NCBI RefSeq assembly: GCF_016863435.1
Contig: NZ_BOOW01000023.1
Span: 124,001 to 188,000, forward strand
DNA length: 64,000 nt
Direction of reading: 5' to 3'
Origin: Sinosporangium siamense
GTDB lineage: Bacteria; Actinomycetota; Actinomycetes; Streptosporangiales; Streptosporangiaceae
Below are positions 45,983 to 59,040 of the stretch, in pieces. Positions within the stretch are counted from its first letter, which is position 1, and each line of letters begins with the position of its first letter. The notes under the pieces are model-generated. The model made no database searches. It was not told where the DNA came from and saw only the letters and a program-made list of their open reading frames with translations. The translations under genes were made by a program, and so were the position numbers.

Positions 45983-46738
45983 CTAGTCCGTGAGCAACTT
46001 CACGATCGCCGTGATGCCGACCACCACGATGAAGCCGCGCAGGACGGGTGCGGGGAGCCTGCGCCCCACCCTGGCACCGAGATAACCGCCGATGATCGCG
46101 CCAAGGGCCACCATCAGCACGGCGAGCCAGTCGACCTTCGCGACCGCGATGAAGAGTACGGCGGCAGCCGCGTTGACGATCAGCGCGAGCACGTTCTTGG
46201 CCGCGTTGACCCGCTGCAAGTCCTCGTCGAGGAACACCCCGAGCAGCCCGAGCAGCACCACACCCTGCGCGGCGCCGAAGTAGCCGCCGTAGACGCCCGC
46301 GCCCAGCACGCCCGCCCACAACCACGGCCCGCCGTGGGGGTGGGCGTGCTCACGCCGGCGGGCCAGCCAGACGTTGATCCGGGGCTGGAACACGACCAGC
46401 ACACACGCCAGCGCGATCAGGACCGGCACGACGACCCCGAAGACGCTCTGCGGCAGCACCAGCAGCAGCGCGCCGCCGATCAGCGCCCCGGCCAGCGAGG
46501 CCGCGCCGAGCCGGACCAGGCGCTCGCGCTGCCCCTTGAGCTCCTCGCGGTAGCCGAGCGCCCCGGTCAGCGAACCCGGCACCAGGCCGATCGTGTTGGA
46601 CACGTTGGCCACGACAGGGGGCAGGCCCACCGCGAGCAGCGTCGGAAAGGTGATCAGCGACCCTGACCCGACGATCGTGTTGATGCCTCCGGCGGCGATA
46701 CCGGCGGCGAAGACGGCGACGGCCTCCCACGGTGTCAA
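45983..46738 (-). CDS. TauE/SafE-family sulfite/organosulfonate exporter
   Basis: This 251-residue membrane protein has seven to eight transmembrane segments and the two internally related halves of the TauE family. The N-terminal GIAAGGINTIVGSGSLITFPTLLAVGLPPVVANVSNTIGLVPG and the second-half GVYGGYFGAAQGVVLLGLLG are diagnostic. The start is a TTG at 46738 with GGGGGAG upstream. The transported anion is unknown. It shares no obvious operon with its neighbours. Confidence 0.9.
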   Translation of the reverse strand: MTPWEAVAVFAAGIAAGGINTIVGSGSLITFPTLLAVGLPPVVANVSNTIGLVPGSLTGALGYREELKGQRERLVRLGAASLAGALIGGALLLVLPQSVFGVVVPVLIALACVLVVFQPRINVWLARRREHAHPHGGPWLWAGVLGAGVYGGYFGAAQGVVLLGLLGVFLDEDLQRVNAAKNVLALIVNAAAAVLFIAVAKVDWLAVLMVALGAIIGGYLGARVGRRLPAPVLRGFIVVVGITAIVKLLTD

Positions 46739-46791: not shown

Positions 46792-47589
46792 TCACCCGTG
46801 GGGGTGGGGTCGGGCATACCACCGGCCGTCCATGCCCTGGTCGAGACCGAGCGGGATGCCGAACGTGCGGCTCAGGTTGTCCGCTGTCATCACGTGCTCG
46901 ATCTGCCCCTGCGCCACGGCCGAACCGTGGCGCAGCAGCATGCCGTGGGTGAAGCCCTTCGGCACCTCCTCCACGTGATGGGTGACCATGACCATCGTGG
47001 GCGACCTCGGGTCGAGCGCGAGCGCCGACAGGCGGCGCACGAGGTCCTCCCTGCCGCCGAGGTCGAGGCCCGCCGCCGGCTCGTCGAGCAGCAGCAGCTC
47101 GGGGTCGGGCATGAGCGCCCGCGCGATCTGCACCCGCTTGCGCTCACCCTCGGACAACGTGCCGAACTGCCGCCGGATGAGATGCGCGCACCCCATCTGG
47201 TCGATCAGCTCGACGGCCCGGGTGACGTCGTGCGAGTCGTATTCCTCGGTCCACCGGCCGAAAATGGCATAGGACGCGGTCAGCACCACGTCGATGACCT
47301 TCTCCTCCGGCGGCACCCGGTCCGCCAGCACCGAGCTGGCCACGCCGATGCGGGGACGCAGATCGAAGACGTCCGCCTGTCCCATGCGCTCGCCGAGCAC
47401 CTCCACCACGCCCTCGCTGGGGAACAGCAGTGTGGCCGCGAGCTGGAGCAACGTGGTCTTGCCCGCTCCGTTGGGGCCGATCACGACCCATCTCTCGTCC
47501 TCTCGGACGGTCCAGTCGATGCCGCGCAAGAGCACGGCGCCGTCCCTGCGCAGTGCGACGTCCCGCAGGTGTAGCACCTGGCCGCCCAT
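46792..47589 (-). CDS. ABC transporter ATP-binding protein, stand-alone
   Basis: This 265-residue ATPase has Walker A GPNGAGKTTLLQLAATLL, signature LSEGERKRVQIARALM, Walker B LLLLDEPAAGLDLGG and the H-loop MVTHHVEEVPKGFTHGMLLR. It resembles the ModF/YlmA-like group. The AAGGAGG ribosome-binding site fixes the ATG at 47589. No permease gene is next to it, so it may serve a distant transporter or have a non-transport role. Confidence 0.9.
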   Translation of the reverse strand: MGGQVLHLRDVALRRDGAVLLRGIDWTVREDERWVVIGPNGAGKTTLLQLAATLLFPSEGVVEVLGERMGQADVFDLRPRIGVASSVLADRVPPEEKVIDVVLTASYAIFGRWTEEYDSHDVTRAVELIDQMGCAHLIRRQFGTLSEGERKRVQIARALMPDPELLLLDEPAAGLDLGGREDLVRRLSALALDPRSPTMVMVTHHVEEVPKGFTHGMLLRHGSAVAQGQIEHVMTADNLSRTFGIPLGLDQGMDGRWYARPHPHG

Positions 47590-47667
47590 CCTGGAACCTC
47601 CTTGCGTGGTGATGCTCGCAGTCCCGCAAGCAAACCGTATTGCAGGCCAAGCGCTTATCGTGGACTG

Positions 47668-48393
47668 GTGCACCCTGAATCACCTATCTCGGCCGGGTTG
47701 GTCTGCTGGGGCAACGCCTGGCTCACCGGCCACGTCGGCCTCGACGAGGCCGTTGACCACGTCGAACGGGAAGGTGGGCCCTGCGTCGTCGGCGACGTCC
47801 CCCTCCGGGGCTTCCTCGCCGACCTGAGGGTCGCCGGCATGCACGCGCTCCGGCTGGCGCTGCCGGCGCCCGGCGACCCGCTCGGCCTCACCGGACCGCC
47901 GGCGTTCAACACGCTGGCCATCGACGCCGGCCAGGCGGTCATCGCCGTACTACCCGAACAGAGCGTCGGCCTCGTGCCCGCGCCCGATCTGCGCGGCTCG
48001 TCATACTCCGGTGTGCGCTGGACCGCCCTCCAGGTCAGGGCCACCACACCCGACATCCCCTCGATCGCCGAGGCCGAGCAGGCGTTGTCGGCGGCCATGC
48101 ACGCCGCGACCGAAGCCCTGGCCTCGGTCGACGGGCCCCGCCCGCCCGTGCCTGACGCCGCACTGGCCCGCGCCGCGCAACCCCTCGCACCCGGCTACCC
48201 GGCCCGTGCCCACCGCGTCGCAGTCCTGGCCGCGCGGCTGACGGTGATGCTGCACCTGGCCGAGGAACGCGGCCTGACCGTGGGGCAGATCGCCACCGGC
48301 GACAACGCCCTGCGCGAGCTGGACCGCGCCGTACGGCGAGCCCGCGTGGCCGCCCACCACGCGATCTTCGAACCCAGCCGCCCGCACCGCTAA
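47668..48393 (+). CDS. conserved hypothetical protein
   Basis: This 241-residue soluble protein has no recognised domain. Regular patterning (ISAGLVCWGNAWLTGHVGLDEAVDHVERE, PDIPSIAEAEQALSAAMHAATEAL, LREL-rich C-terminus) and lack of frameshifts support a real gene that looks shared among actinomycetes. The GTG start at 47668 has no ribosome-binding site, suggesting a leaderless transcript. It is divergent from the ABC ATPase. Function unknown. Confidence 0.68.
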   Translation: MHPESPISAGLVCWGNAWLTGHVGLDEAVDHVEREGGPCVVGDVPLRGFLADLRVAGMHALRLALPAPGDPLGLTGPPAFNTLAIDAGQAVIAVLPEQSVGLVPAPDLRGSSYSGVRWTALQVRATTPDIPSIAEAEQALSAAMHAATEALASVDGPRPPVPDAALARAAQPLAPGYPARAHRVAVLAARLTVMLHLAEERGLTVGQIATGDNALRELDRAVRRARVAAHHAIFEPSRPHR

Positions 48394-48925: not shown

Positions 48926-51900
48926 TCAGGGGGTCGTGCCGAAGCGCCAGATTCGCATCTTCGAATCGGCGCCCGAGGAGACGATCGACAACCTGCCGTC
49001 GCCTCCCACCAAGGGCACGATCGACGTCACATCGCCCTTGTGAGCCCTCTCGATCTTCCCGCGCAGCCTGCCGGTCGTGAGATCCCAGACCCTGATCACG
49101 CCGTCGCCGCTACCCGCCACCACCGTCGTCCGGCCGCCGACCTTGATCGTCGTAAGCGCCTGCACGGTGTCCGTCGGTCCCGCGAGGGACTTGCGTGCGG
49201 CCTTGCGTGTGCGGGCGTCCCAGACGCGGATGCCCCGCTCCGCCCCGGCCGAGAGAACGACGGCACGCTTGTCCAGCTTGGTCAGGGCCAGCGTCTCCAC
49301 CGCCCGGGTGTGCGCCGAGTAGACCTTGCCGTAGCGCTTGCCCTTGGCGATGTCCCAGAGGCGCACGGTTTCGTCCCGGCCGCCGGAGAGCAGGACCTGC
49401 TTCTTCTTTTTCACCTCACCCGACGTCAACCAGTTGACCTTGCCCTTGTGCCCGCGCAGCGGCTTGCCGACCGCCTTGCCGGTCTTGAGGTCGTTGAAGC
49501 GGATCATCCCGGAGCGTCCCGCTGTGGCGACCACCGTACGGCCCTTGCGCTTGACCACGGTCAACGCGGTGATGCCGTTCTTTCCCTTGACGGGGGTGAA
49601 CTTGTCCAAGGACTTGCCGTCCGACAGGCGGAAGACCCGCACCGCGCCGTCGCCGCCGCCGCTCACCGCGACCGGCACCTTGCCGCGCTTGGCGGTGACC
49701 ACCACGGACACCGGCCCCCGGTGCCGCGCCTTGGACTCCCACACCATGCGTCCCGTCCGGATGTTCCACTGCTTGAGCTTGCCGTTCTTCCCGCCGGACA
49801 CGACACGATCCTTGCCGCTCATCGCCGAGACGACCCGCACGCCCGACTTGGCCGCCACACGGTGCCCGTAACCGAGCCATTCCATGCCCGTGGGCGACGC
49901 GGCCACGTGAGAGGAGGACGGCTGCGCCGATACGCCGGGCACGGGCACGCCACTGGGAACCGGCGAAGCTCCCGGCATGGCCGCGACGGGGGCGGAGACC
50001 GACGCGTGGGGCGACGGCCCGTGGTTCACGACCCCGCCGGGAGTGGGCCCCTGAGTCACCGTGCCGCCGGGAACGAGGGTCGACGGCGCACTCGGCGAGG
50101 GGGGACCGTTCACCACTCCGCCGGGCGCCACGGTGGCCGGCACGCCGGGCGACGGAGGGATGGCCGCCGACGGACCGGGCGGGCCGCCTGCCACCACTCC
50201 GGGCAGGTCCGTCACCGGTGCACTGGGCGACGGACCGCTGGTCACGACACCGCCGGGTGACTCGGTCGCCTGGACAGCGGGTGCGACGCTCACCGGCGGG
50301 GAGGCCGGGGGCGCGGCGGGGGACATCGGCGGCGCCGAGGCCACGGCCCGTGTGGGAGCCGTGCGGTCGAGGGTCAACCACGCGGGCACCGCGACCACGG
50401 CCGCCACCGCCACGACCCCCGCCAGCAGACCCACCCGCCGCCTGCGCCGGCTACGGCCCTGGGCCGCCGCGGACCCGTGCTCCCCGGCTGAAGAGGCGCC
50501 GTCCTCGTCCGGGCCGCCCGCGGACTTCCCCGCGCGTGCGGCCAGCCCGACCTCGCCCGAGAGAGCACGCGTCCCGGCCGCCTGGATGCCCCGTCCGGCC
50601 CCACGGCCTGCCTTAGGCCCCTTGGACCGGCCCGGCCCCCCGGAGCCCGCTGAGGAGGATTTACGCCCGCCCGGCGACCCGGCGGCACCCGGGGACTTCT
50701 TCGCCGGTCCGCGCTTCGCGGAGGACCTGCCCGCCTCCGAGGAGGCCGCTTCAGGCCCACCGGACGCCTTGTCCTCACCGGAGGACGCGGCCCCACGCCC
50801 GGCGGACGACCCGCCCGCACCGGAGCCGCTCTTGCCGGAGTCATCGCGAGCCTTGGGCGTCTTCGCCCCGGCGCCGCCGGAGGCCGCACCGCTCTTCGCG
50901 CTCCCGGAGCGACCGGACGCTCCTTCCGAGGCTTCCGCCGTACCGCCCGGTCCGCCGGACGCCCCGGCGGCACCCGCGGAGCCGCTACTCGAGGACTTCT
51001 TCGCCGGCCCGCCCCCACTGGACGAGCCGCCCTTGGAGGAGCCTCCGGAGAGCTTGGAAACCGGCTCCGAGCCGCCGGAGGCCACCGAGGATGCCTTCGC
51101 CGTGGATCCTGCGGAAGCCGTCACCGCGGCGCGATCGGAACCCGTCGTGACGGATTCGACATTCGCCCTGCCGGCTGTCGAATCCGCCGAGATACCGGTG
51201 GTCTCGCCACCGACGCCCCCAGACACGCCGACGGTTGCAGCGGCGCTCACCGGCTTCGCGTCACGTGTCGCCGAGCCCGTGGCGGAGGCCGCCCCTGCCC
51301 CTGCTCCGCCGCCGGCACCCGAGCCGTCCTCAGGGCCCTTGGCCAGGTCGTCGACCGAATACGAGCCCATGGTGCGGCCGGGGTTGCGAGTGGAGGCGCG
51401 GGCGGGGCTCTTGGTGGCGGCTCGTGTGGCCCCGGCGCCTTCGAGGGCGGAGAGGACCGTCCCGATGGCCGGGCGTTCCTCAGGGGTCTTGTCGAGACAT
51501 TTGGCGATGATGGGAGGTATGCCAGGGGGCAGGTCGGGTTCGCCGGTGAGGATGCGATCCATGACCTGTTCGACGGATCCGTCGCCGAACGGCGGGCGGC
51601 CCGTGGTCGCGAAGACGATCACCGCCGCCCACGCGAACACGTCGGCCTCGGGGCCGGGGGTCTCCCCCGCGATCTGCTCGGGCGACATGTAGGCGGGTGT
51701 GCCCACGACCGCGCTGAACATCGTGGCCGCCGACTCCAGCGCGCCCGCCAGCCCCACGCCCGTCAGGCAGGGGCCGTCGTCGGTCATCAGTACCTCGCCG
51801 GGCGCGAAGGCGCGGTGCACGCGCCCGTCGGCGTGGAGGGCGGTGAGGGCTCTGGCGGTGCCCGCGGCGAGGACTCGCCGGTCACGGCCGAGCACGGCGC

Positions 51901-52210
51901 CGGCGAGCGGGGAGCCGTCGACCAGGTCGGTGACGATGTACGGCAGGCCGTCTTCCAGGCCCACGTCGATCACATTGGCGACCTGGGGATAGGCGACATC
52001 GCGCAACGGGGTCATCTCGGCAAGGAACCGGTCGCGCCCCTCGTCTGCCAGCCGGAACCGGGCGTGCAGCAGTTTGACCGCCACCTTGGCCCCGTCGGCC
52101 GCCTGGGCGGTGAAAACCGTACCCTGGCGACCGGAGCCAAGACGGCCGGTGACTCGGTAGCCCCCGAGAACGTCGGGGTCACCCGTCCGTATCGGGCGAA
52201 CGGGCGGCAT
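48926..52210 (-). CDS. receptor pseudokinase with C-terminal WD40 beta-propeller
   Basis: This 1094-residue protein has an N-terminal Hanks-type kinase fold (about 15-255), a very long Ser/Gly/Ala/Lys/Pro-rich linker, one transmembrane segment (VGLLAGVVAVAAVVAVPAWL), a Pro-rich stalk and seven WD40-like blades (LKQWN, VRVFR, IRFND, VRLWD, IRVWD, IRVWD, MRIWR). The glycine loop and ATP-site K46 (VAVKLL) remain. The catalytic loop reads VHRAFAPGEV instead of HRDxKPxN, so the proton-acceptor Asp (A134), the Lys (A136) and the metal-binding Asn (E139) are gone. DFG is GVG (G151). It should therefore be catalytically dead. GAGGAGG supports the start at 52210. It follows an active kinase-WD40 gene by 90 bp. 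Confidence 0.88.
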   Translation of the reverse strand: MPPVRPIRTGDPDVLGGYRVTGRLGSGRQGTVFTAQAADGAKVAVKLLHARFRLADEGRDRFLAEMTPLRDVAYPQVANVIDVGLEDGLPYIVTDLVDGSPLAGAVLGRDRRVLAAGTARALTALHADGRVHRAFAPGEVLMTDDGPCLTGVGLAGALESAATMFSAVVGTPAYMSPEQIAGETPGPEADVFAWAAVIVFATTGRPPFGDGSVEQVMDRILTGEPDLPPGIPPIIAKCLDKTPEERPAIGTVLSALEGAGATRAATKSPARASTRNPGRTMGSYSVDDLAKGPEDGSGAGGGAGAGAASATGSATRDAKPVSAAATVGVSGGVGGETTGISADSTAGRANVESVTTGSDRAAVTASAGSTAKASSVASGGSEPVSKLSGGSSKGGSSSGGGPAKKSSSSGSAGAAGASGGPGGTAEASEGASGRSGSAKSGAASGGAGAKTPKARDDSGKSGSGAGGSSAGRGAASSGEDKASGGPEAASSEAGRSSAKRGPAKKSPGAAGSPGGRKSSSAGSGGPGRSKGPKAGRGAGRGIQAAGTRALSGEVGLAARAGKSAGGPDEDGASSAGEHGSAAAQGRSRRRRRVGLLAGVVAVAAVVAVPAWLTLDRTAPTRAVASAPPMSPAAPPASPPVSVAPAVQATESPGGVVTSGPSPSAPVTDLPGVVAGGPPGPSAAIPPSPGVPATVAPGGVVNGPPSPSAPSTLVPGGTVTQGPTPGGVVNHGPSPHASVSAPVAAMPGASPVPSGVPVPGVSAQPSSSHVAASPTGMEWLGYGHRVAAKSGVRVVSAMSGKDRVVSGGKNGKLKQWNIRTGRMVWESKARHRGPVSVVVTAKRGKVPVAVSGGGDGAVRVFRLSDGKSLDKFTPVKGKNGITALTVVKRKGRTVVATAGRSGMIRFNDLKTGKAVGKPLRGHKGKVNWLTSGEVKKKKQVLLSGGRDETVRLWDIAKGKRYGKVYSAHTRAVETLALTKLDKRAVVLSAGAERGIRVWDARTRKAARKSLAGPTDTVQALTTIKVGGRTTVVAGSGDGVIRVWDLTTGRLRGKIERAHKGDVTSIVPLVGGDGRLSIVSSGADSKMRIWRFGTTP

Positions 52211-52300
52211 GAGCGCCTCCTCGGCACAGACCATGAGAAACATCAGGCTTGAATTTGGGTCCACACAATACGCCGCAAGACGGGCTTATGCCGCCCAGGC

Positions 52301-54721
52301 TTAGGATGCCGGAGCCGCGCTCTTCAGATCCCAGAGTTTGATCTTTCTGTCCTTCCCCGCCGAAAGGACGAGAGTGCGCCCGTCGACCGTGATCACCGAC
52401 ACGGAGTAGACACCGCCCTTGTGCGCCTTCCTGGCCTTGCCGACCTGCTTGCGCTTGGCGGGGTCCCAGACGCGCACGGTGCCGTCGGTGCCGCCGGACA
52501 CGAGGAACGATCGTCCGAGGAGCTCGCCGAAGGCCAGCGAGTAGACGTTGCCCTTGTGACCACTGAGCGGCTTCCCTAGGTTCTTGCGGCTCTTGGGGTT
52601 CCACAGGCGGATCTTCCGGTCCTTGCCGCCCGAGGCGACGACCGTGGTGCCGTCGACCTTCCCGACGGCCACCGAGAAGACCGCACGCTTGTGGCCTCCG
52701 TAGGCTTTGCCGTACTTCTTGCGTTTGGCAAGATCCCACATTCGCAGGGTCTTGTCCTCACTCGCGGAGATCACGATGTCGCGTTTGCCGACGCGGGCGA
52801 AGGCGAGCCAGTTCACGTCCCGGCGGTGTGCCTGGACGGTCCAGACCAGGCGGCGGGTGCGGAGGTTCCACACGCGCAGCATGCCGTCGCCGTCGCCTGA
52901 GACCGCGAGCCACTTGCCCTTGACCTTGCCGATCGCCACCGCGAACACCGCGATCGGGTGCGAGCCGAGGCGGACGCCCTTGCGCTTCTTGAGGTCCCAG
53001 AGCCGGACCGAATGGTCGTATCCCCCGGTCACCGCCACCGGCTTGCCCTTGACCACGGCGGTGGCCACCGCGTAGACCTCGCCCCGGTGGCCGCGCATGG
53101 TGCTCGTCTTCTTGCGCTTGCCGGCGTCCCACAGGCGCAACGTGCCGTCCTGCCCGGCCGACACCAGGGCCTGTCTCTTGCCGATCTCGATCTTCGCCAC
53201 CGACTGCACGGGCTTCTTGTGGCCGCGCATCGACTTGCCGCGCTGACCGCTGATCTCGGGGACCGCGGCCGGCACCGGCACGACGGCCCGCACGTCCGGG
53301 CCGCCGGTGGGGGTGGGGACCGGGGTAACCGGGGTGACCGGGGTGACCGGGGTGACCGGAGAGACCGCGGGCACCGGCGGCGAGTACGGCGGAGCCGACG
53401 GCCTGGCCGACGCCGTCGACTCGGCGATGCTGGTGCTGCTCGTGGGCTCCTCCCGGAAAGCCCCCGGCACGACGAACAGTACGGCTGCCGCCAGCACGAG
53501 AGCCGCGCTGAGCGCCCCGCCCACAGCGAGCGCCCGGCGGCGGCGCGCCGGGCCGCGTTCCTCGGGGTCGGCCTTGAAGAGCGCGTCCGGCCCTTCCTGT
53601 GCGGTGCCCGGGGGTGTGGCCCTGTAGGTGCGGGTGTGGGCGGGAGGTTGCGGGGGGCTCATCGGGTAGGGCGGGGCGAATCGCTTCGGCGGCTCGGCGG
53701 GGGCGGCCGGAGGCGGGGGAAGGGCCGGGCCGCCGGACGGGCTCACCCAGGGCGAGGCGGCCGGGGCGGGCCTGTCCGCGGGCGCGGGTTGTTCGCCTTG
53801 TTCACCGGAGGAGAGAGCACGCGGGTCGGCCGCCATCTGCGATCCGACGGTCAGCGAACGCTCCAGATCCCCGTCGTCTTCCTGCGGGGTGACGACGGGG
53901 ATGGGAAGCTCGTCGTGTTCGGCGAGGAGCTGGAAGAGCGCCTCGGCGGCGGTGGGGCGGTCCTCGGGGCGTTTGCCGAGACACGACTGCACGATGGGGC
54001 GGAGCCGGCCGGGGAGGCTGGAGACATCGGGCTCCTCGTTGATCACCCGGTAGATCACCGCGGGCAGGCTGTCCTGGCCGAACGCCGGGCGGCCGGAGGC
54101 CGCGAAGACCATCGTGATCGCCCAGCTGAACATGTCGCTGGGCGGCCCCACCCGCTGCCCCGCCACCTGCTCGGGCGACATGTACGCCGGTGTGCCGAGC
54201 ACACCGCCGGTCAGCGTCGCCGCCGAGTCGAGCGCACGCGCGATGCCGAAGTCGATCACTCTTGGTCCGTCGGGCCCGATCAGCACGTTGCTGGGTTTGA
54301 AGTCCCGGTGCACGATGCCGGCGCGGTGGATGGCCGCGAGGGCGGTCACCGTGCCCACCGCGAGCCGATAGAGCGCGCCGCCGGACCGCGGGCCCTCAAG
54401 CTGCACCACACGTTGCAGGGACACGCCTTCGACGAGTTCGCTCACGATGTAGGGGCGTTCGCCGTCCATGTAGGCGCCGAGCACCTGGGCGGTGCAGAAC
54501 TGGGCGACTCTGCGGGCGGCGGCCACCTCGCGCAGGAAACGTTCGACGTCGATGCCGGGCTCGTCGAGCCTGGTGTTGAGCAGTTTGATGGCGACAGGCG
54601 AGCCGTCTGGCGTTTCAGCCGCGTAGACGACGCCCTGTGCGCCTTCGCCCAGCCGTCCGGTGATCCGGTGGGCACCGAGCGTCTGAGGGTCGCCGGGCCT
54701 GAGCGGCATTCTCTCCGGCAC
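52301..54721 (-). CDS. receptor serine/threonine kinase with C-terminal WD40 beta-propeller
   Basis: This 806-residue PknB-like kinase has a catalytic domain (about 15-275) with GRLGEGAQGVVY, K46, an intact catalytic loop IVHRDFKPSNVL (D140), DFG (D157) and GTPAYMSPEQV. After a Pro-rich linker and one transmembrane helix (LAVGGALSAALVLAAAVLFVV) and a TPVTP stalk come seven WD40 blades, each ending in LRLWD-type motifs. The kinase is inside and the propeller outside, so the propeller may sense an envelope ligand. The GTG start at 54721 has AAGGGA upstream; ATG 54709 is an alternative. It is upstream partner of the pseudokinase gene. Confidence 0.92.
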   Translation of the reverse strand: MPERMPLRPGDPQTLGAHRITGRLGEGAQGVVYAAETPDGSPVAIKLLNTRLDEPGIDVERFLREVAAARRVAQFCTAQVLGAYMDGERPYIVSELVEGVSLQRVVQLEGPRSGGALYRLAVGTVTALAAIHRAGIVHRDFKPSNVLIGPDGPRVIDFGIARALDSAATLTGGVLGTPAYMSPEQVAGQRVGPPSDMFSWAITMVFAASGRPAFGQDSLPAVIYRVINEEPDVSSLPGRLRPIVQSCLGKRPEDRPTAAEALFQLLAEHDELPIPVVTPQEDDGDLERSLTVGSQMAADPRALSSGEQGEQPAPADRPAPAASPWVSPSGGPALPPPPAAPAEPPKRFAPPYPMSPPQPPAHTRTYRATPPGTAQEGPDALFKADPEERGPARRRRALAVGGALSAALVLAAAVLFVVPGAFREEPTSSTSIAESTASARPSAPPYSPPVPAVSPVTPVTPVTPVTPVPTPTGGPDVRAVVPVPAAVPEISGQRGKSMRGHKKPVQSVAKIEIGKRQALVSAGQDGTLRLWDAGKRKKTSTMRGHRGEVYAVATAVVKGKPVAVTGGYDHSVRLWDLKKRKGVRLGSHPIAVFAVAIGKVKGKWLAVSGDGDGMLRVWNLRTRRLVWTVQAHRRDVNWLAFARVGKRDIVISASEDKTLRMWDLAKRKKYGKAYGGHKRAVFSVAVGKVDGTTVVASGGKDRKIRLWNPKSRKNLGKPLSGHKGNVYSLAFGELLGRSFLVSGGTDGTVRVWDPAKRKQVGKARKAHKGGVYSVSVITVDGRTLVLSAGKDRKIKLWDLKSAAPAS

Positions 54722-54911
54722 GTATGTCCCTTCCCCCTACTCCAGAGCGTGAATACGTCCGCCCCCGCCGCTCTGCTGCGAACAAAGATACGCAAGGATC
54801 GCATATCCTCAAAGATCAACTCTCTTCACATTTATTAGTCATAAGTGGCTAGCGCTCAGTCAACATCGGATAATCGTGGGACTCTGACCTCTACATCGCG
54901 TGGAGCCCCTC

Positions 54912-55604
54912 ATGCGCCGACAGTTCGGCACTCTCATCGGCATTGGGCTGATAGCCCCACTTGCCGTCGCCACGATGCCTGTCGCAGCCTTCGCGGCCTC
55001 ACCTACCAGGGCGGTAGGTGCTACATCGAGCGCTAAAGCACCCTTTTCCAAGTTCAAAGTCGACCTGAGATGGACAAAAGCCACCAAACGCGGCGGAAAG
55101 CTGACATACGCCATTCGCGCCACGAATCTGGGTCCCCACACCGCCGACTACTTCTGGATCGGCGGGTACGTGCCGAACGGTGTCGTGCCGACCCTCTACT
55201 GGGAGGCCGCCAAAGGCACGACGTGCACCTGGGAAGGGCGCTTGTTCTGGTGCTTCACCCCCAATGTCCTCGCCAAGGGGCAGAGCGAGTGGCTTAACTT
55301 CCGCGTCACCATGAAGAAGGGCACCAAGGGCACCGCCGTCGCCAAGCTCGGCGTCGTGGCCTTCGACGTGCCCCAGGGCGCCCACACCCTGAGCAAGGAG
55401 GAGATCAAGGACCTCAACCTCAAGGGCCACTACTACCTGAAGACGGCCAAGAGCACGATCATCACCCCGCCGCCCCCGCGCCGGCCCGGCAAGAAGCGGC
55501 CCCCCGCGCCGCCGCCCCCGCCGCCGCAGCCGCCGAAGCCCAAGTGGAACCCGCCGCCGATCAAGAGCGGCACGCCCGAGCGGAACGAGAAGAAAGACAC
55601 CTGA
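54912..55604 (+). CDS. secreted DUF11-like domain protein with Pro-rich tail
   Basis: This 230-residue protein has a signal peptide (RRQFGTLIGIGLIAPLAVATMPVAAFA) and an Ig-like/DUF11-type domain (about 45-175). The domain contains GGKLTYAIRATNLGPHTADYF and a pair of cysteines (TTCTW, FWCFT). A Pro/Lys-rich tail (PPPPRRPGKKRPPAPPPPPP) may span the cell wall. GGAG stands 6 nt before the ATG at 54912. A paralogue lies at 59316-59885. It is divergent from the kinase-WD40 pair. No sortase motif is present. Confidence 0.82.
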   Translation: MRRQFGTLIGIGLIAPLAVATMPVAAFAASPTRAVGATSSAKAPFSKFKVDLRWTKATKRGGKLTYAIRATNLGPHTADYFWIGGYVPNGVVPTLYWEAAKGTTCTWEGRLFWCFTPNVLAKGQSEWLNFRVTMKKGTKGTAVAKLGVVAFDVPQGAHTLSKEEIKDLNLKGHYYLKTAKSTIITPPPPRRPGKKRPPAPPPPPPQPPKPKWNPPPIKSGTPERNEKKDT

Positions 55605-55622: not shown

Positions 55623-56345
55623 TCAGGCCAGACCGTAACGCACCGCGTAGAGCGCGGCCTGGGTGCGGTCCTGCACGCCGAGTTTCATCAGCACATTGGA
55701 CACGTGGGTCTTGACCGTCTTCTCGGCGACGGTCAGCTCACGGGCGATCTCACGATTGGAACGGCCGAGCGCGATCAAGGCAAGCACCTCGCGCTCACGG
55801 TCGGTGAGCGGGGCGACCGGCCACTCCTCCCCCCGGCGAGCGGCCTCCACCGCGCCACCACCCGGCCCACCCGGCGGCGGACTCGTCAACACCGCGGAGG
55901 CGGCCTCAGGGGCCAGCAGCACCTGGCCCCCGTGGACGGCCCGGATCGCGTGGACGAGCGCCGGAGGATCGACATCCTTGTAAAGGAACCCCGCGGCCCC
56001 CGCACGCATGGCGGGCACCACGTCCCCCCGATCACTCACCGACGTCAGCACGAGCACCCGCGTGCCACCGCCGCACCCGGGCGCCTCCGGGCCCTGAGAC
56101 CTGTCCGGGGCCGGACTCCCACCGGCCGCCGCGAGGGCCGACAGAGCCCCGAGACCGTCGAGCACGGGCATCTTGAGATCCAGGAGCAGCACATCGGGCG
56201 CGAGTGACTCCACCAGCGCGACGGCCTCGGCTCCGTTCGCCGCCTCACCGACGACTTCGATGTCATCCTGGAGGTCCAGGAAGGTCCGCAGCCCCTCCCG
56301 CACAATCGGGTGATCGTCCGCGATCAACACCCGGATCACCGGCAT
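55623..56345 (-). CDS. NarL/FixJ-family response regulator with an unusual insert
   Basis: This 240-residue regulator has a receiver domain with D10-D11, phospho-acceptor D56 (LLLDLKMP) and FLYKD. A Gly/Pro-rich insertion of about 20 residues (GGSPAPDRSQGPEAPGCGGG) sits just before the beta4 strand VLVLTS, where canonical receivers have a short loop. The linker is also Pro-rich, and the LuxR helix-turn-helix (PLTDREREVLALIALGRSNREIARELTVAEKTVKTHV) is complete. GGAGG precedes the ATG. It is downstream of the GAF histidine kinase in the same direction and is its likely partner. Confidence 0.92.
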   Translation of the reverse strand: MPVIRVLIADDHPIVREGLRTFLDLQDDIEVVGEAANGAEAVALVESLAPDVLLLDLKMPVLDGLGALSALAAAGGSPAPDRSQGPEAPGCGGGTRVLVLTSVSDRGDVVPAMRAGAAGFLYKDVDPPALVHAIRAVHGGQVLLAPEAASAVLTSPPPGGPGGGAVEAARRGEEWPVAPLTDREREVLALIALGRSNREIARELTVAEKTVKTHVSNVLMKLGVQDRTQAALYAVRYGLA

Positions 56346-56544
56346 GTGCCCTCCATCGACGTCGCCCCTTCCCATCCCGCCCGGGCCGGAGACCGTCCCC
56401 CTCACACACCCGAACCTGCCCGCCAGGCCACCAGGCGACTTCAACAAATCTCCCCCCGCCGTCCTTCCCCGTAGCCGACTACAGGGGCTCATGCGGCCGT
56501 CCGACCGGCCCCCCAATTCGTTCACCCGCCTGGCACACCACCCG

Positions 56545-56613
56545 CTCACGCGCGGACACCGGGGTGAGAGCACGCGAGCCGAGGTTCTCCTCACACGCGG
56601 ACACCGGGGTGAG
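56545..56613. repeat. 24-bp direct repeat (two copies, 45 bp apart) between kinase and regulator genes
   Basis: CTCACGCGCGGACACCGGGG followed by TGAG at 56545-56568 recurs at 56590-56613 with one change. Each copy ends in inverted CTCAC/GTGAG halves. The location just downstream of the kinase gene and upstream of the regulator gene would suit a regulator-binding site. Confidence 0.7.
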
Positions 56614-56631: not shown

Positions 56632-57810
56632 TCACGTGAGGGTGGTGGGGAGTCCGGTGAGGTGGTCGTTGGGGTGGACGAAGTGCACCGCGGTGCCTTT
56701 GCCCGGTGCGGACGTGACGCGCAGGCGGCCGCCGACAGCCTCGGCGCGGTCGGCCATGGAGGCGAGGCCGAGCCCGCAGGTGGCGCCGATCGCGGGGTCG
56801 AAGCCTTTGCCGTCGTCGCGGACCTGGAGGACGAGCCCGGCGTCGCCCGTGGTGAGGGTGACCTCGACGGTGCCGGCGCCGGAGTGGCGGAGGGCGTTGT
56901 GCAGGGCCTCCTGGGCGACGCGGAGCACCGCGATCTCCACCTCGGGCTCGATCTCGCAGGTCGCCTCGGACTCGAAGACGAGGCAGATGGGGTGCAGCAC
57001 GTCGAGCAGGCCCACGTGTTTGCGCAGGGTCTCGACCAGGCCGTGGCGGGCGAGCTCGGCCGGGCGGAGCTCGACGATCACGGCGCGCAGCTCGGCCAGG
57101 GCCTCGCCGGCGAGGCGCTGCACCCGGTCGAGCTCGGTGAGGGCACGCCCGGTGTCGCTGTGGAGGAGCGCGGCGGCCGACTGGGCGGTGAGCCGGAGTG
57201 AGAACAGCTTCTGGGTGACCGCGTCGTGCAGCTCGCGCGCCATGCGTTTGCGCTCCTCGACGAGCGTCAGCTCTCGCGACCGCTCGTAGAGCCGGGCGTT
57301 GATCAGCGCGATGGCGGCGTGCCCGGCGAAGAGCGTGAGGAGCTCCTCGTCGGCCTCGCTGAAGCCGCCCTGCGCCTGCCGCTTGTTGGCGAGGAAGATG
57401 ATGCCGAGCACCTGGTCGCCGTCGAGGATCGGCACACCGAGGAAGTCTTTGAGCACGGGATGCGCGTCGGGCCAGCCCTCGAAACGAGGATCTTGCCGGA
57501 TGTCGCTCACCCGCGTCGGGCGCGTGTCGCGCAACATCGCGGCCAGCATGCCGTGCTGGCGGGGCAGCGGGCCGATCGCCTCCCACTGCCGGTCGCTGAT
57601 GCCCTCGGCGACGAACTCGGCGAAGGACCCGCTCTCGTCGGGCACCCCGAGCGCGGCATAACGCGCGTTGAGCAACTGCCCGGCCGAGCGCACGATGACC
57701 TGAAGCACCTCGCGCATCGACAAGTGCCGGGTGACGGCGAGCACGGCGGCACTCACCGCGTGCAGCACCGCCCTTGGGTCCTCGTCGGCCCCAGCCCCCT
57801 CCGCCGTCAT
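56632..57810 (-). CDS. soluble GAF-domain histidine kinase (DevS/NreB-like)
   Basis: This 392-residue kinase has no transmembrane segment. A GAF domain (about 30-170, with DFLGVPILDGDQVLGIIFLANK) precedes the HisKA_3 helix, where the phospho-acceptor is H195 in ERKRMARELHDAVTQKLFSLRL. The HATPase domain has VAQEALHNALRHSGAG and VRDDGKGFDP. GAF kinases of this type sense small ligands, heme-bound gases or redox state; no heme-ligand motif can be assigned by eye. ATG 57810 is chosen although GAGGGG is only 1 nt away; GTG 57816 is an alternative. Confidence 0.9.
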   Translation of the reverse strand: MTAEGAGADEDPRAVLHAVSAAVLAVTRHLSMREVLQVIVRSAGQLLNARYAALGVPDESGSFAEFVAEGISDRQWEAIGPLPRQHGMLAAMLRDTRPTRVSDIRQDPRFEGWPDAHPVLKDFLGVPILDGDQVLGIIFLANKRQAQGGFSEADEELLTLFAGHAAIALINARLYERSRELTLVEERKRMARELHDAVTQKLFSLRLTAQSAAALLHSDTGRALTELDRVQRLAGEALAELRAVIVELRPAELARHGLVETLRKHVGLLDVLHPICLVFESEATCEIEPEVEIAVLRVAQEALHNALRHSGAGTVEVTLTTGDAGLVLQVRDDGKGFDPAIGATCGLGLASMADRAEAVGGRLRVTSAPGKGTAVHFVHPNDHLTGLPTTLT

Positions 57811-57936
57811 ACCCCTCACGATAGACGCCGCCACCGACGAAAACACCCGCCCTGCGACCTGGTGCAGACGTCCTAGGTCCAACTGCCGAGTGCCCGGCCG
57901 ATGCGCGGTTGACCTCGCGCTTCGTACGGTCGTGGC

Positions 57937-59040
57937 ATGACCCCGCACGATCCCGGCGGCTGTCCGGATGTGCCCTCGGCGACCACCCGTCCCGCCCACG
58001 CGGAGACGACCGCGTGCGAGCCGCCGAGGGTCCGCGGGCTGGCACGGGACGGGGTCCGGCTGCTCGTGTCCCGGCTAAGCGGCGGCGTCATCGAACATCG
58101 TGTCGTCGCGGATCTGCCCGACCTGCTTCGCCCCGGTGATCTCCTAGTGGTGAACGACTCCGCCGTGCTCCCCGCCGCCGTACGGCTCGACCGGCTGACC
58201 GTGCACTTCATGGCCGCCCGCGAGGACGGCTCGTGGCTGATCGAGTTGCGCTGCCGCACAGGCCGGCCGTACCCCGGGGGCACAAAGGGCGAGTGGTTGC
58301 CGCTGCCCGGCGGCGCGACGCTGCGGTTGCTGCGGCGGGAGACGTCGCGGGCGTGGCGGGCCTCCTTCAATCGGGACGTGGTGCCCTATCTCCAGAGGTA
58401 CGGCACAGCCCGGCATTTGGCGCATGCCCCAGGGGACTGGCCGATCGACGACTATCGGCCGGTGTTCGCCCGGGTCCCGGGGAGCACAGGGGTGCCGGCC
58501 GCCGGGTTGGCGGTGAGCCGCGGGCTGCTGGCGCTGCTGGGGCGGCGCGGAGTGGATATCGCGGTTGTCACGCTGCATATGGCGGCGTGCACGGACGGGC
58601 CGCTGCCGCCGGAGTGGCGTGCAGTGCCGGAGTCGACCGCGCGCCGGGTGATCGCGGCCAGGCGCTCAGGTGGGCAGGTGGTGGCGGTCGGGGCGTCGGT
58701 GATGCGCGCGCTGGAGTCGGCGGTCGCGGAGCCGGAGGCACTCGCGGAGCCGAAGGCACTCGCGGAGCCGAAGGCACCCGCGGAGCCGGAGCCGGAGGCG
58801 TTCGCGGAGCCGGAGCGGGTGCGCGCATGTGCGGGGTGGACCGCGCACACCGTGGGGCCGGACTGCCCGCCGCAAGTGGTGACGGGGCTGATCAGCGGTC
58901 TGCGGCGGCCGGCGCCGGGCCGTCCGTCGGCGGTCGCCGCGGTCGCCGGTGACGCTTTGACCGAGCGTTCATATGGCGAAGCCGTACGCGAAAGGTATCT
59001 GTGGCGGGAGTTCGGCGACGTGCATCTGGTCTGCTGGTGA
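57937..59040 (+). CDS. QueA-like S-adenosylmethionine:tRNA ribosyltransferase-isomerase homologue
   Basis: This 367-residue protein has QueA family features: HRVVADLPDLLRPGDLLVVNDSAVLPAAV near the N-terminus, GVPAAGLAVSRGLLALLGRRGVDIAVVTLHM in the middle, and RSYGEAVRERYLWREFGDVHLV at the end. Bona fide QueA carries APTAGLHFT and VTLHVGxGTF; here those are AAGLAVS and VTLHMAACTD, so it is a divergent member. A loop of repeated AEPEALAEPKALAEPKAPAE units is inserted at about 265-290. No tgt, queC-F or other queuosine genes are in the window. Catalytic function is doubtful. Confidence 0.82.
   Translation: MTPHDPGGCPDVPSATTRPAHAETTACEPPRVRGLARDGVRLLVSRLSGGVIEHRVVADLPDLLRPGDLLVVNDSAVLPAAVRLDRLTVHFMAAREDGSWLIELRCRTGRPYPGGTKGEWLPLPGGATLRLLRRETSRAWRASFNRDVVPYLQRYGTARHLAHAPGDWPIDDYRPVFARVPGSTGVPAAGLAVSRGLLALLGRRGVDIAVVTLHMAACTDGPLPPEWRAVPESTARRVIAARRSGGQVVAVGASVMRALESAVAEPEALAEPKALAEPKAPAEPEPEAFAEPERVRACAGWTAHTVGPDCPPQVVTGLISGLRRPAPGRPSAVAAVAGDALTERSYGEAVRERYLWREFGDVHLVCW

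Follow-up and report, generated by a model that had tools for sequence, protein, structure and literature searches.

The window, the whole stretch of 64,000 nucleotides that was analysed (genome G000), contains two adjacent receptor kinase genes on the same strand, an active-type kinase gene followed after a 90-nt spacer by a gene encoding a degenerate kinase domain (Table 1). A first interpretation made from the letters alone, referred to here as the sequence-only reading, had assigned both genes the same kinase-linker-transmembrane-WD40 layout. This was confirmed by the open reading frames, by Pfam Pkinase and WD40 models that matched both proteins and by a hydropathy scan, which found one strongly hydrophobic stretch after basic residues in each. 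Both genes, on the (-) strand, therefore encode a Hanks kinase domain, a linker, one predicted transmembrane (TM) helix and a WD40 propeller, in which seven blades were counted by eye in each protein. In the downstream protein the kinase-like domain is followed by a long Ser/Gly/Ala linker, one TM helix and the seven-blade propeller. The longest open reading frame of this gene, from GTG 52264, has 1112 residues; the start assigned is ATG 52210, behind a GAGGAGG ribosome-binding site, which gives the 1094-residue frame originally proposed.

Table 1. Features of the receptor kinase locus (window positions)
Feature	Coordinates	Strand	Basis
Receptor pseudokinase gene, 1094 aa	48926..52210	(-)	ORF, Pfam matches, GAGGAGG ribosome-binding site
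Pseudokinase domain, residues 1-258	51437..52210	(-)	Pkinase match, alignment, model pLDDT 91.8
Predicted TM helix of pseudokinase, RRRRR just before	50378..50434	(-)	hydropathy scan
WD40 propeller of pseudokinase, predicted extracellular	48929..49840	(-)	domain match, 5yzv match, model superposition
Adjacent active-type receptor kinase, 806 aa, complete VAIK/E/HRD/K/N/DFG	52301..54721	(-)	ORF, domain matches, alignment
Conserved 18-nt motif GCGTATTGTGTGGACCCA, between the two genes, 45 nt before pseudokinase ATG	52256..52273	(-)	motif search
Small protein, signal-like N-terminus, weak DUF11 match	54900..55604	(+)	locus comparison, domain match
NarL/LuxR-type response regulator; longest ORF, true start probably further in	55623..56594	(-)	locus comparison, domain match
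GAF-domain histidine kinase	56632..57999	(-)	locus comparison, domain match
Conserved protein without Pfam or NCBIfam match (CWGNAWLTGHVGLDEAVD stretch), convergent with pseudokinase	47602..48393	(+)	locus comparison
ABC ATPase	46792..47673	(-)	locus comparison, domain match
TauE/SafE permease	45983..46738	(-)	locus comparison, domain match

The motifs of the upstream kinase are complete (VAIK, αC-Glu, HRDFKPSN and DFG), and D140 of HRD and D157 of DFG are both present, as claimed. The downstream protein has VAVK, HRAFAPGE and GVG, so that A134, A136, E139, G151 and V152 stand for the HRD Asp, the catalytic-loop Lys, the Asn, the DFG Asp and the DFG Phe, respectively. The reported loss of the first four, with K46 and the glycine loop kept, was verified residue by residue. 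An alignment of 21 active relatives, including the upstream window gene, showed that D134, K136, N139, D151, F152 and E65 were invariant; the window pseudokinase retains E65 and departs at the other five positions, which argues that the losses are not due to chance. Sequencing error was rejected as their source, since the orthologue in the second species of the genus (G001), 73% identical, has lost the same residues (A, G, E and G, where the window has A, A, E and G). A Hanks-type pseudokinase is defined in the relevant section of PMC12599244 by the absence of at least one of β3-Lys, HRD-Asp and DFG-Asp, and both HRD-Asp and DFG-Asp are absent in G000 and G001.

A census of kinase motifs at loci L001-L060 of these two genomes, a set in which 14 of the 44 G000 kinase matches had no locus and to which only some were added later, listed 54 entries whose motifs were complete, one domain being entered twice in some cases where loci overlapped. 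After entries sharing 30 residues had been combined, 42 groups remained. Two were without a catalytic residue, one comprising the window pseudokinase and its G001 orthologue and the other an unrelated G001 kinase. Besides the orthologue, G001 has an unrelated pseudokinase-like domain at L054 (G001:C52:149020-149736), with the motifs HQGLTPHN and DVA.

When the best seven candidates per genome were scored in a profile search of 341 genomes of the family, the degenerate group had nine members (429-473 bits), with the next match at 301 bits. A search with the 18-nt motif, independent of the profile, returned the same nine genomes of the 341. An order-wide draw of 200 genomes gave no further member, and among the 24 matches listed all were from the same family. 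On the tree the nine degenerate copies formed one clade, with 100/100 support. The upstream active kinase fell in a different clade, which had the same 100/100 support.

The orthologues, in the order G000, G001, G012, G064, G009, G028b, G120, G068 and G098, carry E V A A A A V V V at the αC-Glu position, A A H D D D D D D at the HRD-Asp position, A G K K K K K K K at the catalytic Lys, E E N N N N N N N at the Asn, G G D D D D D D D at the DFG-Asp and V V G A A A A A A at the DFG-Phe position. The DFG Phe was lost in all nine and αC-Glu in eight, G000 alone retaining it. The catalytic base, HRD-Asp, was missing only in G000, G001 and G012, having been lost on the tree at least twice independently, in the window's genus and in G012. 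The HRD Asp, Lys, Asn and DFG Asp were all present in six of the nine, G064, G009, G028b, G068 and G098 with HRD and G120 with HGD. K46 (the β3-Lys), G153, T163 of the activation loop, E178, D190 and R246 were retained in every member, and G25, G27 and G30 were invariant. By this alignment the degenerate group is altered throughout and, within the nine, only the window's genus has lost everything; because six orthologues retain the four residues, inactivity may not hold for the entire group. Conservation of the A134/A136/E139/G151 changes, which the sequence-only reading had raised as a question for related genomes, extends to the same four positions in G001 but not to those six. The distribution of residues suggests a stepwise order, in which the DFG Phe (9/9) and αC-Glu (8/9) would have been the first losses and the HRD Asp, Lys, Asn and DFG Asp would have followed in the window's genus, the fold, the β3-Lys, the glycine loop, the activation-loop Thr and the APE Glu being retained.

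Since K46 and the glycine loop are retained, as ATP binding would need, it is possible on these residues that the pseudokinase binds ATP. Some unusual use of ATP by the domain, as a weak kinase or for AMPylation or another transfer, would be in keeping with 1) the invariance of K46 and G25/G27/G30 in the nine, 2) the main catalytic residues present in six of them and 3) SelO and SidJ, pseudokinases with other activities that are mentioned in PMC12599244. However, neither species of the genus has the metal ligands N139 and D151, the catalytic base D134 or the DFG Phe, and we consider such a use of ATP quite unlikely.

Comparison of G000 with G001 by the NG86 method, in which synonymous sites may be partly saturated, gave a dN/dS of 0.175/0.805 (0.22) for the pseudokinase domain, 0.291/0.661 for the WD40 part of the same protein and 0.67/1.09 for its long disordered linker, so the kinase fold is the best-kept part of the protein. 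The pseudokinase domain resembles in this respect the neighbouring response regulator (0.174/0.904) and histidine kinase (0.179/0.588); the values for the TauE and ABC genes were 0.155/0.563 and 0.047/0.463. The reading frame was open in all nine degenerate orthologues found in the 341 genomes; frame-disrupted relatives, which had been named as a sign of decay, were not found among them. Decay in a gene whose frame is not yet broken would fit the stepwise loss of catalytic residues and the dN/dS of the linker, but a dN/dS of 0.22 across two species, nine open frames, the conserved 5' motif and the confidently predicted fold make it very improbable, and decay of a useless gene was rejected on the dN/dS and the conserved frames. 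The same losses in G001, together with the low dN/dS of the domain, indicate that the downstream gene is a pseudokinase maintained by purifying selection. Selection for a non-catalytic role, as first suggested, is thus supported by an orthologue with the same losses, by the low dN/dS and by an intact predicted fold.

The AlphaFold2 model of the pseudokinase domain, made from 46 sequences, is a complete bilobal kinase (pLDDT 91.8, pTM 0.90) whose nearest PDB structure is PknA (4ow8, TM 0.83). By prediction, therefore, the kinase fold is intact. The weakest region is the activation segment (block mean 63), with a short helix ahead of it. The WD40 part matched the WD40 domain of Thermomonospora curvata PkwA (5yzv) by sequence at 3.2e-25, one among many matches, and the propeller model, built on only two aligned sequences (pLDDT 88.8), superimposed on 5yzv with TM 0.81/0.85.

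Like both window proteins, the WD40 Ser/Thr kinase PkwA (PDB 5YZV is its WD40 domain) has an N-terminal Hanks kinase and a C-terminal WD40 propeller. The pseudokinase shares this layout, with kinase domain and propeller in one chain; it lacks the catalytic residues of the PkwA type, whereas the upstream window gene and 20 further relatives retain them. WD-repeat kinases of bacteria were listed in 2005 (PMC1262709), and this list and the title of a 1996 paper on PkwA indicate that the kinase-WD40 architecture was already known. Nor can it be called rare, as the sequence-only reading did, since a passage in PMC2877116 names WD40 as one of the domains most often tethered to kinases in prokaryotes.

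The pseudokinase was compared with the families in PMC12599244 by the motifs stated there for each. ActPs1 has substitutions at all three canonical residues, and K46 is retained in the window; ActPs2 has the β3 Lys changed to Arg and the HRD Asp to Asn, where the window has VAVK and HRA; ActPs3 has degraded motifs and an activation-loop deletion, and the window keeps VAVK and the loop through the APE Glu; in the pseudokinase members of DLHK, GLW and DYD the β3 Lys motif is replaced, and K46 is present in all nine orthologues. All six families were rejected on these grounds. The pseudokinase domain of MviN (MurJ), an ActPs3 member, is like the window protein an actinobacterial, membrane-linked pseudokinase, and has a non-catalytic recruiting role, as summarized in PMC12599244. 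Unlike the window protein, ActPs3 has VALT for VAIK, an activation-loop deletion and, in the same summary, no mention of WD40. The MviN domain is described there as recruiting FhaA after PknB phosphorylates its tail, and as forming back-to-back dimers (PMC12599244).

A kinase fold without catalysis occurs in other settings as well. EssB and YukC are secretion-system proteins whose architecture and locus are unlike those of the window. They too are presented in PMC12599244 as pseudokinases in which the kinase fold serves as a scaffold without phosphotransfer.

The surroundings of the pair were compared in 15 loci, the window and 14 others. The GAF histidine kinase and the response regulator lay upstream in all 15, and the ABC and TauE genes lay downstream in 13, being absent from the stretches covered for G009 and G064. 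The active gene stood alone in the six loci chosen for close relatives of the active kinase. The DUF11-like protein adjoined the active kinase in seven of the eight loci holding one; it lies between the response regulator and the active kinase, and its relatives were observed elsewhere in several of the same loci.

The motif GCGTATTGTGTGGACCCA was found, allowing at most one mismatch, in 9 of the 341 family genomes, in a single copy each and always 5' of the pseudokinase gene; the reversed motif, as a control, matched in 1 of 341, and two mismatches gave one stray match, in G001, among 12 genomes searched. Its 18 columns were common to 8.8 of the nine rows on average, as against 6.4 for the 33 other gap-free upstream columns. 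The element may be the pseudokinase's own promoter or operator, although a scan of 52150-52450 revealed no sigma-70 promoter or terminator at the motif. An RNA hairpin was rejected as the conserved feature on the folding of five sequences: three of the other clade folded better than most of their shuffles, with z values of -2.63, -1.70 and -1.92 (2, 9 and 7 of 200 shuffles as good), whereas the two of the window's genus folded worse than shuffles (z +1.87 and +1.96).

The sequence-only reading had made the downstream protein an allosteric partner or scaffold of the active kinase beside it, the paired cytoplasmic domains allowing the pseudokinase to switch the active one. The two genes are indeed adjacent on one strand with a 90-nt spacer, the active gene precedes the degenerate one in both G000 and G028, and PMC12599244 reports that bacterial kinases, and the pseudokinase of MviN too, form back-to-back dimers. 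Against this, the twin is absent from seven of the nine orthologue genomes (G001, G012, G009, G064, G068, G098 and G120), which carry the degenerate gene alone; in these genomes the closest relatives of the active kinase reach no more than 62% identity. Among the 341 family genomes, with the best seven candidates scored in each, 45 have an active orthologue (E 1e-120), nine a degenerate one and two both, so that 43 hold the active gene without the pseudokinase. The two genes thus occur together about as often as chance predicts, in two genomes against 1.2 expected (Fisher p 0.34). With the neighbour missing in seven genomes, deleted in G001 and lost, by the remnants described below, in at least three, dedicated partnership with the adjacent kinase is unlikely, and the original proposal was not supported.

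A remnant of the active gene was found in G001 between the response regulator and the pseudokinase (L061:6827-7021). It consists of the last 65 active-kinase residues and the stop, 40 of the 65 being identical to the window's active gene, and scored 231 as protein against a maximum of 63 in 60 shuffles and 64 as DNA against 17.5 in 300 shuffles. In G064 and G009, shorter shards aligned as DNA with the G028 active gene at its 3' end (0/300 shuffles as high each). The same comparison was weak in G120, G068 and G098 (3, 7 and 3 of 300 shuffles as high) and not significant in G012 (17/300), the compared stretches including a few conserved bases just 5' of the motif that slightly help the weak cases. 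Against the window's own active gene, only G001 (0/300) and G009 (1/300) stood out as DNA and the G064 shard was not seen (129/300); as protein, only G001 and G064 scored above 60 shuffles. The remnant and the two shards indicate that the pair is ancestral at least in the lineages bearing them and that the active copy was deleted there. If the active copy was never regained, the gene tree would imply at least five losses, three of them backed by shards.

In a tree of the flanking genes, with some weak branches, G000 and G001 grouped with the active-only G099, apart from the other degenerate genomes. The grouping is consistent with an old pair from which one gene or the other was lost in different lineages; the locus may instead have been transferred. 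A similarity scan of six active-only loci for remnants of the pseudokinase matched just the active gene, the match in the G141 locus extending slightly beyond the stop of that gene. Pairing is possible in the two genomes that hold both genes, G000 and G028. A kinase acting in trans is another possible partner, since G001 carries another WD40 kinase with complete motifs elsewhere (L223, the same gene as L038); a further WD40 kinase of G000, L216, has a weaker WD40 match.

The reading we favor, with a probability of roughly 0.6, is that the downstream gene encodes a maintained non-catalytic WD40 membrane receptor that uses its kinase fold as an interaction module, independently of its twin. It probably signals by contact with its partners rather than by phosphorylating them, and this is the simplest account of a pseudokinase that selection maintains even where its neighbour is lost and its catalytic residues are gone, and whose kinase fold has been preserved more closely than the propeller. 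The gene would have arisen when a PkwA-like WD40 receptor kinase gene, at a conserved locus beside the GAF histidine kinase and the response regulator, was duplicated in tandem long ago. The extracellular propeller would sense or dock, and the intracellular kinase fold would change its contacts with cytoplasmic partners; the protein is probably dimeric, may itself be phosphorylated by other kinases and would not depend on the neighbouring active twin. Several observations weigh against such a receptor: six of the nine orthologues retain the main catalytic residues, G000 still has its αC-Glu, the β3-Lys and glycine loop used in ATP binding are present, two genomes still hold both genes in the same order, the second WD40 kinase of G001 may serve as a trans partner, and the G064 shard was not seen against the window's own active gene. 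More tentatively, a receptor lineage may have swapped a kinase for a pseudokinase, the non-catalytic copy with its own 5' element taking over the locus and the catalytic copy being deleted several times. A receptor of this kind would signal wholly without phosphotransfer, perhaps to the adjacent histidine kinase and response regulator.

No description of a WD40 receptor pseudokinase of actinomycetes was found in the titles, beginnings of abstracts and selected sections searched, and as far as these searches show, what is new here is a non-catalytic, twin-independent variant of the WD40 receptor kinase. Bacterial pseudokinases are characterized in the abstract of PMC12599244 as largely unexplored experimentally. 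The present orthologous group is a graded series from near-complete to fully lost active sites, and species with both genes, with the degenerate copy alone or with the active copy alone are all available. With the series and the distribution together, it can be tested directly if a bacterial receptor functions when it has no kinase activity, and at what stage catalysis was abandoned.

Two further genes recur at the locus. A QueA-like gene (57937-59040, (+); Queuosine_synth, PF02547) lies beside the histidine kinase and was present, by similarity, in 13 of the 15 loci including the window; tRNA-guanine transglycosylase (PF01702) was not found in G000, G001 and G028, and 14 of 14 control genomes were positive. 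The protein with the CWGNAWLTGHVGLDEAVD stretch (47602-48393, (+)) lies next to the kinase locus in 14 of the 15 loci, the window included.
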